DNA from: Planctomycetaceae bacterium
GTDB taxonomy: Bacteria > Planctomycetota > Planctomycetia > Planctomycetales > Planctomycetaceae
DNA: 42,085 bases
Direction of reading: 5' to 3'
Assembly (NCBI GenBank): GCA_021732785.1
Contig: JAKFUG010000013.1
Span: 1 to 42,085 of the forward strand
Part shown: positions 6,901-9,431 of the stretch, piece by piece
How the letters are laid out: every line of letters starts with the position of its first letter
Position numbering within the stretch: position 1 is the stretch's first letter
Notes under the pieces: generated by a model
What the model was told of the DNA's origin: nothing
What the model saw: the letters and a program-made list of their open reading frames with translations, nothing else
Databases searched by the model: none
Made by a program: the position numbers and the translations under genes

Positions 6901-7100
6901 ATGCGACCGAACTGCAAGTCGTGCAGACGGTGCTCGATCAATACCTCGACCGCTACCGCCAGGATCCATCCGCCGCGAAAGCCGTGGTCTCCGTCGGCGA
7001 GTCCCCCCGTCCCGACGGCATGAACGATGTCGACCTCGCGGCCTACACGCTGATTGGCAACCTGATTTTAAATCTCGACGAAACGGTGACACGGAATTGA
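3951..7100 (+). CDS. PSCyt1 / DUF1549 / DUF1553 exported cytochrome-like protein
   Basis: A 1049-residue protein of the planctomycete cytochrome C-type family. A signal peptide covers about residues 9-26. The PSCyt1 domain holds the haem motif C44-FA-C47-H48 after NRDIRPILSANC. A DUF1549 domain starts near residue 150 (NEIDRFLIAKLDHE) and contains a second CxxCH, C332-AV-C335-H336. A beta-rich insert lies at about 470-590, and a DUF1553 domain starts near 733 (NRLDLARWLMSPEHPLTARVTVNRFW in this family). These proteins are usually encoded directly next to a DUF1501 gene, and that partner follows here, but only after an intervening repeat-bounded cassette. The biochemical function is not established; involvement in periplasmic redox steps of carbohydrate breakdown is a common guess. 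An internal ATG at 3978 is an alternative start. Confidence 0.92.
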   Translation: MLIRVHSVRMVLAFVIAVSLFSTVTAEDEISFNRDIRPILSANCFACHGFDAKQRKADLRLDTPEGAFTEHDGRTAVKPRDLTASELWKRVSSADENEVMPPPSTKKALTAEQKTTLKNWIEQGAPYQKHWAFEAPVAVTPPALTKVDRPQNEIDRFLIAKLDHEHLAYRPQASRETLIRRVSFSLTGLPPTIAETNVYLQDTSTDAYEKMVDRYLQSPRYGEEMARHWLDVARYADTHGLHLDNERSMWAYRDWVINAFNKNEPFDQFTVEQLAGDLLPNPTPEQLIATGFNRCNVTTSEGGAIEAEWLYRYAVDRTSTTMQTWMGLTGGCAVCHDHKFDPISAKEFYSLYAFFYSAADPGMDRNTNTTDPYYSLATAEQKAAIEQLRADEAHTKKQFDEAVLNAEYIDPATLTPAPAPQSVTDVWLDDMFPEGSKPTCSSRNASVWSTRSELHPMLGRRALKQFSASNYHDKIDTTQIPLVIPAKPTLWVWVRVDPDEPSKTLQLELATSRGNRRFVWGDLKNYSGTNEKQHLGDIPLPGQWTQLTIPESQLELQAGDTVKMVTLAQFGGIAWWDGLQIDGTITPATDVRSSFTAWWKAAAGKDTPGIPGDLAAFLKAGPKTIPTEGDAANTEEAKQDRDRLAKLRQYYLTNIARLKDGPLAAFQDLWQAAKRARVGLEESIPGTFIFKDLDKPREAFVMLRGQYDKPGEKVEPNVPAIFPPLPKSENLRPNRLDLARWLMSPEHPLTARVTVNRFWQQLFGTGLVKSSFDFGSQGDSPSHPELLDWLALWYRDHGWDTKTLVKLMLTSAAFRQEATVTPDVLQRDPENRWYARGPRFRLDAEQIRDNALYVSGLINLDMGGRGIKGYQPPGLWEPVGYSDSNTRFYLQDHGPSLYRRSIYAFLKRTAPPPFMSNFDGPNREQFCTHRERSNTPPQALQLLNDTQHFEAARSFGKRMLSEGGTTPAERITFGYRTTLSRNPDATELQVVQTVLDQYLDRYRQDPSAAKAVVSVGESPRPDGMNDVDLAAYTLIGNLILNLDETVTRN

Positions 7101-7104
7101 CCAT

Positions 7105-7153
7105 CCGGTCCCCTCTCCCCCGTCCGCGGGGGAGAGGGTTAGGGTGAGGGGGG
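7105..7153. repeat. REP-like GC-rich palindromic repeat, copy 1 (inverted)
   Basis: The palindrome CCCTCTCCCC…GGGGAGAGGG is followed by the tail TTAGGGTGAGGGG. It is read here in the opposite orientation to copies 2 and 3. It starts four bases after the stop codon of the DUF1549/DUF1553 gene. A palindrome plus a conserved single-stranded tail is the layout of REP elements. The hairpin could also end transcription. Confidence 0.85.
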
Positions 7154-7188
7154 AATCGGGCAAAGGGCTTACATTGGGAGAGGTTAAT

Positions 7189-7422
7189 ATGAAACCGTAT
7201 GAAATTATCGAAGAGCGTCTTTGCAATGTCGTACGCCAAGTTGGTCACTTACATCGTTGCGAATGCGGACGGAGAGCATTGGGGTGGAAAGCGCCGGAAT
7301 TCATTGCCACCGTAAACGGTAAGACGTTGTCGATTGGCTATGATGGCAACTCAAATAAGATCAGTTGCGGTGGCAAGCCTTACCACTCCGCACACTACAG
7401 TAGCACGGCTGCGTGTGGTTAG
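7189..7422 (+). CDS. Small orphan protein, unknown function (77 aa)
   Basis: I do not recognise this protein. The ATG at 7189 is preceded by GGGAGAGG at a good ribosome-binding distance, which favours it over the in-frame start at 7144 that would read through the repeat. The product begins MKPYEIIEERL and has no signal peptide or membrane segment. It carries four cysteines before the C-terminus (C12, the pair in RCECG, and one in SCGGKPYHS) and one more at the end (AACG), which might bind metal. Hand-counted GC is about 51%, lower than the flanking genes at about 60% or more. It lies between inverted copies 1 and 2 of the REP-like repeat and just upstream of a DUF559 nuclease, so it may be cargo or a partner. 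It could also be a chance ORF, but the ribosome-binding site argues against that. Confidence 0.5.
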   Translation: MKPYEIIEERLCNVVRQVGHLHRCECGRRALGWKAPEFIATVNGKTLSIGYDGNSNKISCGGKPYHSAHYSSTAACG

Positions 7423-7428
7423 ATCACT

Positions 7429-7477
7429 CCCCCTCACCCTAACCCTCTCCCCCGCGTACGGCGGGAGAGGGGACCGG
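7429..7477. repeat. REP-like GC-rich palindromic repeat, copy 2
   Basis: Reads CCCCCTCACCCTAACCCTCT then CCCCCG, a short loop, and GCGGGAGAGGGGACCGG. It is nearly identical to copy 3 and to the reverse complement of copy 1. It lies seven bases after the orphan gene and ends ten bases before the DUF559 start codon, so it occupies the leader of that gene. Confidence 0.88.
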
Positions 7478-7486
7478 ACTTGGAAC

Positions 7487-7879
7487 ATGGCTCGCCAATT
7501 GCCACCGCGCCGTGAACTCACTCAAGAGCGTGCGCACCAACTTCGCCTCAACCTGGCACCGGCGGAACAACTCGTGTGGAGCCTCCTGCGGGATCGGCGT
7601 CTCGGAGGGTTGAAGTTTCGACGGCAAGTTCCCAGCGGCCCGTACATCGCCGATTTCTTGTGCCACGAAGTCAACCTGATAGTTGAGCTGGACGGCGAAA
7701 CACACGAGTATCGGATGCACGAAGATGCCGAACGGACCCGGTATTTGGAATCACAAGAGCTGCGTGTGTTACGCGTCGCGAATGAGGACGTATTTGCGAA
7801 TTTGGAGTCGGTTGCGATTGCCATCCTGAAAGTAGCCGGAATCGATGTCGCAGTCTGGCTCGCAGACAGAGAACGATGA
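7487..7879 (+). CDS. DUF559 family endonuclease-like protein
   Basis: A 130-residue protein of the DUF559 family, related to the Vsr/PD-(D/E)XK nuclease fold. It has the family's helical N-terminus (LTQERAHQLRLNLAPAEQLVW), the strand KFRRQVPSGPYIADF with D56 as the expected catalytic Asp, and NLIVELDGETH with E67 and D69, then VLRVANEDVFANLE. Length fits the family. The frame stays open upstream to 7334, but that part translates the repeat ([16 protein letters not shown]), so the ATG at 7487 is preferred. The gene sits between two direct copies of the REP-like repeat. The cellular role of DUF559 proteins is not known; proposals include DNA repair, restriction or mobile-DNA functions. Its link to the repeats suggests a role in their movement, which is inference. 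Confidence 0.85.
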   Translation: MARQLPPRRELTQERAHQLRLNLAPAEQLVWSLLRDRRLGGLKFRRQVPSGPYIADFLCHEVNLIVELDGETHEYRMHEDAERTRYLESQELRVLRVANEDVFANLESVAIAILKVAGIDVAVWLADRER

Positions 7880-7895
7880 GTGAAGAAGCGGAAGA

Positions 7896-7944
7896 CCCCC
7901 CTCACCCTAACCCTCTCCCCCGCAGACGGGGGCGAGGGGACCGG
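7896..7944. repeat. REP-like GC-rich palindromic repeat, copy 3
   Basis: Same orientation as copy 2: CCCCCCTCACCCTAACCC, then CTCTCCCCCG, a loop, and GGGGGCGAGGGGACCGG. It starts 16 bases after the DUF559 stop codon and ends 20 bases before the DUF1501 start codon, so it closes the cassette that separates the DUF1549/DUF1553 gene from its usual partner. Confidence 0.88.
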
Positions 7945-7964
7945 ATAGAAGACAGCGAGACTTA

Positions 7965-9431
7965 ATGATGCACCCTTCTCGTGAATATGCGCAGCAGCAA
8001 ACCCGCCGACAGTTCTTTGGTCATACCGGATTGCGGCTGGGTGGTGTCGCGGTGGCATCGATGCTGGCCGGGAACGTATCCGCAGCGGAGTCGCATCCGC
8101 GGATGATGCCCGCGCTGGCCGATCTGCCACATTTCGCCCCGAAGGCGAAGGCGATCATCTATCTGCACATGAACGGGGGGCCGTCGCAGATTGACCTGTG
8201 GGACTACAAACCGGTTCTCGCCGATCATTTCGACAAGGAACTGCCCGACAGCGTCCGTATGGGACAACGCATCACCACGATGACCAGCGGCCAGTCGCGG
8301 CTGCCCGTCGCGCCGTCAAAGTTCAAGTTCGCGCAACACGGTCAATGCGGCCGGTGGGTCAGCGAACTCTTGCCGCACACGGCCAGGCACGTGGACGACA
8401 TCGCGGTCGTGAAATCGGTGCATACCAATGCGATCAACCACGACCCGGCATGCACGTTCGTGATGACCGGCAGCGAAGTCCCCGGCAAACCGAGTCTCGG
8501 TTCGTGGCTGGCGTATGGACTCGGCAGCGAAAGCAACGATCTGCCCGCATTTGTGGTGCTCACCCCGATGTGGTCGTCCGGAGCCGCGGCACAGGCCCTG
8601 TTTACGCGCATGTGGAGCAGCGGTTTTTTGGCATCGAGCTACAACGGGGTCGCGCTCCGCAGCGTGGGTGACCCCGTGCTGTACGTGCAGAATCCGCCGG
8701 GGGTGGAAGCCCATGACCGCCGCGTGATGCTCGATGCGCTGGCCAGGCTGAATCAGCGCCAGTTCGATCATTTAGGCGATCCTGAAATTCAAACCCGCAT
8801 CGCCCAGTACGAGATGGCGTTCCGCATGCAGTCCAGCGTGCCGGAATTGACGGACTTGAAATCGGAATCGCAGGCCACGCTGGAATCTTACGGACCGGAA
8901 GTTCTCAAGCCGGGGACGTTCGCTGCAAGCGCTTTGCTGGCACGGCGGATGATCGAACGGGGCGTGCGCGCCGTGCAGATTCTGCATCGCGGTTGGGATC
9001 AGCACGGGAACCTGCCGCGCGATATTACGTCGCAGTGTTATGACACCGATCAACCCGTGGGGGCGCTGCTCACCGATTTGAAGCAACGCGGTTTGCTCGA
9101 CAGCACGCTCGTGGTCTGGGGCGGCGAGTTCGGCCGCACGGTGTATTCACAAGGAACGCTCACCAAGGAGAATTACGGCCGCGATCATCACCCGCGCAAC
9201 TTCTGCATGTGGATGGCCGGCGGCGGGATCAAGGGGGGCGTGAGCTACGGCGAAACGGACGATTTCAGTTACAACGTCGTCAATCAACCGTGTCACATTA
9301 ACGATCTGAACGCGACAATTCTGCATTGCCTCGGGATCGACCACGAACGGTTCACCTACAAGTTCCAGGGGCTCGATCAGCGCCTCACCGGCGTGGAGCC
9401 GCAGCGCGTCGTCACCGAGATTCTGACGTAG
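7965..9431 (+). CDS. DUF1501 family Tat-exported protein
   Basis: A 488-residue DUF1501 protein, a sulfatase/alkaline-phosphatase-fold relative widespread in planctomycetes and usually paired with DUF1549/DUF1553 proteins. The twin-arginine signal R14-R15-QFFG is followed by a hydrophobic stretch ending near NVSA-AES (about residue 40). Family motifs visible include [52 protein letters not shown] and [21 protein letters not shown]. The gene has two tandem ATGs at 7965 and 7968. Function is unproven; a periplasmic hydrolase is the usual guess. It was probably once adjacent to, or co-transcribed with, the DUF1549/DUF1553 gene before the repeat cassette came to lie between them. Confidence 0.92.

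Follow-up and report, generated by a model that had tools for sequence, protein, structure and literature searches.

Stand-alone genes of the DUF559 family and the hairpin-plus-tail repeats at their flanks probably form one co-evolving system resembling REP/RAYT systems, and this was the explanation that best accounted for the data as a whole. The association of the repeats with DUF559 and the pairing of repeat type with nuclease type are strong, and the coupling of the two components is the claim held with the greatest confidence. The repeat found in the window (i.e., the whole analyzed stretch of DNA of a Planctomycetaceae bacterium, 42,085 nucleotides in length) is already known; it has the same sequence, GGGGAGAGGGTTAGGGTGAGGGG with a hairpin, as the BoxC repeat of Escherichia coli, also described as the "intrastrand triplex motif" (TM, PIT; PMC4666352, Table 1) and reported from more than 260 genomes (PMC4666352). 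The new element is the DUF559 partner: in the literature covered (mostly open-access journals), DUF559 or YcjD was not found linked to BoxC-type repeats. The undescribed REP-like system proposed in a sequence-only reading of this DNA is new with respect to the DUF559 link, whereas the repeat itself had been described earlier.

Structure of the Repeat-Bracketed Block

Two flanking genes in the window, labeled DUF1549/DUF1553 and DUF1501 in the sequence-only reading, are separated by a block of ~860 bp (positions 7101–7964, no strand assigned) holding three repeats, an orphan ORF, and a DUF559 gene; the upstream ORF ends at 7100, and the ATG of the downstream gene is at 7965, 18 bases past the third repeat. 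The three REP-like repeats, which the sequence-only reading had described as bracketing the DUF559 gene and the orphan, were located at 7103–7153, 7429–7478, and 7896–7946. Repeat 1 (7103–7153, plus strand), a hairpin-plus-tail repeat of the BoxC/TM type with the motif given in Table 1 of PMC4666352, has its tail directed into the block and is the left-hand member of the outer inverted pair. Repeat 2 (7429–7478, minus strand), with its tail directed upstream toward the orphan, makes an inverted pair with repeat 1 round the orphan, and repeat 3 (7896–7946, minus strand), with its tail directed toward the nuclease gene, is the right end of the outer pair. The repeats are 50–51 bp long (n = 3); repeats 1 and 3 are inverted arms of 51 bp with 96% identity and inward tails, and repeats 2 and 3 lie in the same direction on either side of DUF559. 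Each repeat consists of a C-rich arm and a G-rich arm forming a hairpin, followed by a G-rich tail, as judged from one folded copy: the strand at 7103–7153 folds into a hairpin of 12 bp, its tail staying single-stranded (z = −2.65; 3 of 200 shuffled sequences were equally stable). All three copies contain GGGAGAGGGTTAGGGTGAGGG or its complement, and the BoxC/TM core GGGNGAGGGYYRGGGTGAGGG (hairpin and mirror-like tail) is present in the window repeats.

The orphan ORF (7189–7422, plus strand, 77 aa; ORF list and family searches), located between repeats 1 and 2, had no match at E ≤ 1 among the families of Pfam, NCBIfam, and PADLOC; its top PHROG match had E = 0.23, and a tblastn search against phages gave nothing at E ≤ 1. 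The lower GC content that had been attributed to it was confirmed (50% versus 58.7% for the window). It has an SD-like AGAGG ahead of the ATG, is enclosed by its own inverted repeat pair, and may be a passenger gene.

The stand-alone nuclease-like DUF559 gene (7487–7879, plus strand) extends from an ATG at 7487 to a stop codon ending at 7879. Its product matched PF04480 with 111.5 bits (Pfam cut-off 20.6, E = 2.4 × 10−32); two weaker families were returned besides PF04480 in the Pfam search, with no Y1 transposase family among the matches, and NCBIfam PRK09767 (DUF559 protein) was matched at E = 4.7 × 10−24, yet below the cut-off of that model. The longer DUF559 reading frame translates through a repeat, so that the translated repeat at its start, noted in the sequence-only reading, was seen here as well. 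The DUF559 profile matched the PDB entries 3hrl ("endonuclease-like protein", E = 3.9 × 10−37) and 3r3p ("mobile intron protein", E = 1.8 × 10−6), the latter of which we take to be I-Bth0305I; in the 3r3p alignment, the D of the DUF559 VDF motif was not paired with a D. YcjD was taken as a member of the PD-(D/E)XK group in 2005, and according to the same source its profile detects Vsr (PMC1189080). A known defence system was considered and rejected, as the window proteins had no PADLOC match at E ≤ 1 and the relative L042 had two weak ones; a PADLOC "homing endonuclease" model matched L042 weakly (E = 0.0012). The L048 sequence has an in-frame stop, which was retained as X.

Dispersal of the Repeats in the Source Genome

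The 18-nt repeat core was found in 43 copies in the source genome at no more than two mismatches (reversed control, 0). Three of the 43 copies lie within a 1.7-kb stretch round one gene, and chance clustering of the repeats at the gene was ruled out (Poisson P about 2 × 10−7). Of the 40 copies outside the window, 27 were read. In 25 of these, a second hairpin type (GGTCCCTTCTCCCCC..GGGGGAGAAGGTGGCCGAAGGCCGGATGAGGGGG; degenerate in some) is followed by a spacer and then by the window type in inverted orientation, so that the copy is bipartite; in L018 both sides are of the window type, and L025 lacks the left part. In L037 (genome G105 of the same family), DUF559 is bracketed by a repeat with a GGCCGGATGAGGGG tail that resembles the second type, which supplies the left-hand part of the source genome's bipartite copies.

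A second PF04480 match of the source genome (L002, G000:C1:313575–313772) lies inside a longer frame of 280 aa, and the strict motif is absent within 1.5 kb of it; judging by this locus, the repeat association may be limited to stand-alone DUF559. An empty orthologous site, as envisaged in the sequence-only reading, was found in genome G216 of the same genus, where the same two flanking genes adjoin and the ~860-bp block is missing. A stricter motif gave 42 copies in the source genome versus 1 in G216, which has no PF04480 match.

Association of the Repeats with DUF559 Genes

PF04480 was detected in 40 of 246 planctomycete genomes (E ≤ 1 × 10−8), and the repeats proved to be strongly enriched beside stand-alone DUF559 genes, as the sequence-only reading had supposed. 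The strict BoxC motif was present near the gene at 9 of 30 planctomycete loci (the window's own locus and 29 others) versus 3 of 57 shifted windows. Since the low-GC repeat types escape a search with the strict motif, an unsupervised comparison of flanks was used, in which inverted repeats (score ≥ 30) flanked 27 of the 30 DUF559 loci versus 1 of 57 shifted windows. The Vsr control from the same phylum sample gave 0 of 25 loci and 0 of 50 shifted windows (30 Vsr loci less 5 excluded because of their length; the Vsr profile is shorter, so that more of each 300-bp control window is Vsr coding DNA). Among loci from many phyla (the best 80 of 566 relatives in named genomes, seven being dropped for too little flank), 57 of 73 were flanked at a score of ≥30 versus 15 of 529 shifted windows (56 of 72 without L107, which scored through an N-run, an artefact, and is also among the 99 loci of the correlation given below), and 46 of 73 versus 2 of 529 at a score of ≥40; the strict motif lay within 300 bp of the gene at 29 of 73 loci versus 3 of 529 shifted windows. 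This set includes two planctomycetes, L119 (dropped) and L152. Below the inverted-repeat threshold were 3 of the 30 planctomycete loci and 16 of the 73 loci from many phyla.

These comparisons bear on the view that the repeats are ordinary bidirectional short GC-rich terminators and that the likeness of the flanks is convergence. The hairpins do lie in intergenic spaces (own fold; PMC4666352 for BoxC/TM), but in the Vsr control 0 of 25 loci were flanked, the tails and class-specific endings are foreign to terminators, and many near-identical copies occur per genome against reversed controls of 0, 0, and 1. Terminators were therefore rejected, and this explanation retains practically no probability.

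The strict motif was found in at least five copies in 23 of the 246 planctomycete genomes; PF04480 was present in 14 of these 23 and in 26 of the 223 others (Fisher p = 3 × 10−7, with the cut-off of five copies picked after the counts were known and the genomes not being independent of each other). The 9 motif-rich genomes without a PF04480 match include the near-complete G002 (100%), G205 (99%), and G172 (98%). Similarly, genomes G049 and G088 contain the low-GC repeat types A and B and have no PF04480 match, and G217 has 19 type-A copies, though the three of its nucleases that were read all fall outside class A. The repeats may outlive the nuclease, as with REPs. Separate occurrence of repeats and nuclease, named in the sequence-only reading as evidence against its hypothesis, was thus observed in part, yet overall the two did not occur independently.

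No consistent rule was revealed for the polarity of BoxC type A and B ends relative to the gene at 22 loci with readable tails on both sides, and the expectation of one end type per gene side was dropped. It should be noted that in the 3.9-Mb planctomycete genome G084 (L036), 371 motif copies (≤1 mismatch) were counted, some of them in runs about 170–260 bp apart. In Legionella anisa (L151), the DUF559 gene lies within unusually long inverted flanks of 147 bp, and in Neisseria gonorrhoeae (L249) variant repeat copies in the same direction flank the gene; L249, L243, and L244 are chromosome-sized records filed as plasmid.

Correspondence between Nuclease Classes and Repeat Types

DUF559 protein similarity was correlated with near-flank similarity across 99 loci (Spearman 0.43; highest of 500 permutations, 0.20), and the coefficient was 0.40 after GC correction. 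The far-flank control gave 0.16 raw, above all 500 permutations, and 0.07 after GC correction, with 5 of 500 permutations as high.

Low-GC planctomycetes have several DUF559 genes per genome. Nuclease classes were named from the motif following a conserved F, and 32 loci were compared, of which 27 were classed and five unclassed. The classes were F[MS]RQKP[IL]G (tail GGGGGTTGT, 5 loci), FHRQKPID (tail GGGGTGTGT, 6 loci), FDRQKPID (tail GGGGTGGGT, 6 loci), FRRQRP (tail GGGGGTGGA, 9 loci), and FRRQYG, or class E (tail GGGGAGGT, 1 locus). The tail pattern of the own class was present in 27 of the 27 classed loci, 5 of which also fit a second, looser pattern. Near flanks matched (score ≥ 40) in all pairs of the same class, both across genomes (69/69) and within a genome (7/7); for all remaining pairs, matches were seen in 1 of 27 when the two loci shared a genome and in 10 of 393 when they did not. 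The medians for far flanks were 20–22, and none of 2000 within-genome label shuffles reached the observed value. Two repeat types were counted in 14 genomes; one had a match in 12 of 14 (reversed control, 0) and the other in 14 of 14 (reversed control, 1 match). Thus, the repeat type follows the nuclease class, not the host, and the co-variation of repeat families with DUF559 groups expected from the sequence-only reading is present. This pairing within genomes provides biochemistry with a ready set for specificity swaps.

The repeats could also have been spread by other machinery, with the DUF559 genes being passengers between repeat ends. The orphan ORF that also lies between the window repeats, an orthologous site with a gene-less pair of another class, and the presence of repeats in genomes without a PF04480 match agree with this. 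It offers, however, no reason for the match of repeat type within a genome, and bracketing of 27/30 and 57/73 DUF559 loci versus 0/25 Vsr loci also speaks against it; we regard it as very improbable.

Gene-Less Elements and Proposed Mechanism

Gene-less elements of ~170 bp were found in G217 (two), G122, and G324. At both ends they match the element of G153 that carries the gene (80–83% and 88–91%), and those of G122 and G324 also have its inner stretches TTGTAAAATAGC and AAAAACACAACCCC. In G325, a gene-less pair with an FDRQ-class tail is present at the orthologous site. In the five BoxC pairs of E. coli MG1655 that were read, the tails are directed inward in four and outward in one (L287).

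In the proposed co-evolving system, the full element would consist of a hairpin, an inward tail, the DUF559 gene, an inward tail, and a hairpin. Gene-less pairs, namely, the BoxC pairs of E. coli, the bipartite copies of the source genome, and the ~170-bp elements of low-GC planctomycetes, would be its non-autonomous derivatives, and solitary hairpins would be remnants or targets. The nuclease would recognize its cognate hairpin and tail, perhaps in a single-stranded or triplex fold, and cut there, after which repair from another copy would spread the element by homing-like copying or remove it. It is likely that the nuclease mobilizes or maintains the repeats; as regards this claim of the sequence-only reading, coupling and type pairing were observed, and from them we infer mobilization or maintenance itself. 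That the process is homing-like copying and not true transposition is put forward tentatively, at somewhat under even chances. The chances are about equal for and against a separate class of bacterial mobile elements, present in many phyla, in which a lone nuclease of the Vsr/EDxHD type would read a hairpin-plus-third-strand (possibly triplex) end with a lineage-specific end code and, through cuts and copying from one hairpin to another, would have seeded BoxC-type repeats in genomes ranging from that of E. coli to those of planctomycetes. If the proposed system is real, it would provide a function for DUF559, a widespread family of unknown function, and would mean that REP-like genome repeats have arisen a second time, from an unrelated source.

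Comparison with Known Systems

According to PMC8266576, RAYT belongs to the HUH nucleases, and the hairpins on which it acts carry a GTAG tag. The DUF559 system resembles REP/RAYT in its dispersed tagged hairpins, which occur both alone and in inverted pairs next to a single low-copy nuclease gene, in the cognate pairing of nuclease and repeat, and in a conserved tag beside the palindrome, which in this case is a G-rich tail and not GTAG; inverted pairs without a gene, as in REPINs, also occur. It differs from REP/RAYT in that no GTAG was seen by eye 5′ of the palindrome and a GGGTGAGGG-type tail follows the hairpin, in that the partner is DUF559 (Vsr/EDxHD-related) and not HUH/Y1, in that the long G-rich tail resembles a hairpin arm, and in that gene and repeats make one bracketed element. 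Since two defining features, the HUH nuclease and the GTAG tag, are absent, the DUF559 system was not classed as REP/RAYT.

With BoxC/TM it shares the sequence, the inverted pairs of types A and B, and loss states that keep the stem-loop, whereas BoxC/TM as described has no partner gene, which here is DUF559/YcjD. Kinship with EDxHD homing endonucleases and Vsr is indicated by the match of the DUF559 profile to 3r3p and by the detection of Vsr with the YcjD profile (PMC1189080); however, those enzymes (I-Bth0305I and Vsr) are intron-encoded or serve repair, whereas DUF559 proteins of ~120–130 aa are free-standing and encoded between repeats. As in MITEs, gene-less copies retain both ends of a gene-bearing element, but in contrast to MITEs with a parent transposon, the ends of the DUF559 element are hairpins with inward tails, and there is no known transposase.

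Conserved Sites with and without the Gene

The DUF559 gene of E. coli is ycjD, located between sapF and fabI; its region, searched with a 1051-bp query and counted when 80% or more of the query was matched, is present in 3361 of the 5426 genomes of this species. In MG1655, ycjD ends within a degenerate BoxC, after which comes an intact BoxC. According to PMC4666352, BoxC/TM repeats of MG1655 are intergenic in every case and include five inverted pairs of types A and B, they vary between strains with loss states retaining the stem-loop, and their authors state that remnants of a transposase or integrase were never met nearby; the account given there names no spreading agent (PMC4666352). With YcjD, a candidate agent for BoxC is now named in E. 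coli K-12, so that the question becomes testable in the best-known bacterium. In two E. coli records without ycjD (L281 and L282), the site is occupied by efflux genes, which correspond to the eef operon as presented in PMC12817139, and therefore it is not a clean empty site.

A conserved site in Xanthomonas was searched for in 35 genomes, of which 33 were inspected and 27 included in a midpoint-rooted tree; the gene was present in 24 of the 33 inspected genomes and missing in 9. Seven of the nine gene-less sites retain one hairpin between the outer flanks, degenerate in some, and those of G310 and G305 have no hairpin. Provided that the gene is ancestral at this site, at least five separate losses are implied; alternatively, repeated insertion into a pre-existing hairpin could have produced the same pattern. 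The one-hairpin state, which was also found in E. coli at hrpB–mrcB (L247) and alx–sstT (L288), fits either a deletion between palindromes or an empty target, and a loss that leaves one hairpin may reflect no more than ordinary slippage where a palindrome is present in direct copies.

Persistence of the Xanthomonas gene at one site together with apparent repeated losses also fits a domesticated gene. On this explanation the nuclease would serve in housekeeping or repair by resolving or trimming the hairpin repeats, curing rather than spreading them, and the repeats lie near its gene as substrate or regulator. Retention at the Xanthomonas site in 24/33 genomes, the ycjD region in 3361/5426 E. 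coli genomes, and kinship with the repair nuclease Vsr (PMC1189080) are consistent with such an enzyme, but gene-less elements with both ends, several classes per genome each with its own repeats, and the bracketing geometry resemble autonomous and non-autonomous forms of an element. Domestication is accordingly considered unlikely, though it ranks above the passenger explanation. At the level of sequence, no clean gain with a target-site signature appears among the sites compared, which counts against the preferred reading of one co-evolving system.

The exact target site or its duplication was sought in G216, at one Xanthomonas site, at four BoxC pairs of MG1655, and in the low-GC genus. Alternative alleles from G216, seven Xanthomonas genomes, and E. 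coli (L245, L247, L288, L292, and L293) had diverged spacers or one hairpin, and no target-site duplication was found in them besides the hairpin itself. The states met at the sites compared were one hairpin, no repeat with a diverged spacer, a shortened tail (L291), another inverted repeat within the hairpin (L290), and a pair of another class (L315). Further E. coli records, at hrpB–mrcB, alx–sstT, and two more sites, had no repeat or had other rearrangements. In E. coli BL21 (L289), an unrelated stretch occupies the BoxC site of MG1655 at alx–sstT, and the interval is longer by 217 bp. In L290 (E. coli, lldD–trmL), the BoxC hairpin is broken by a 35-bp inverted repeat, CTGTCTCTTGATCAGATCTCCTGATCAAGAGACAG, which resembles back-to-back inner ends of Tn5.
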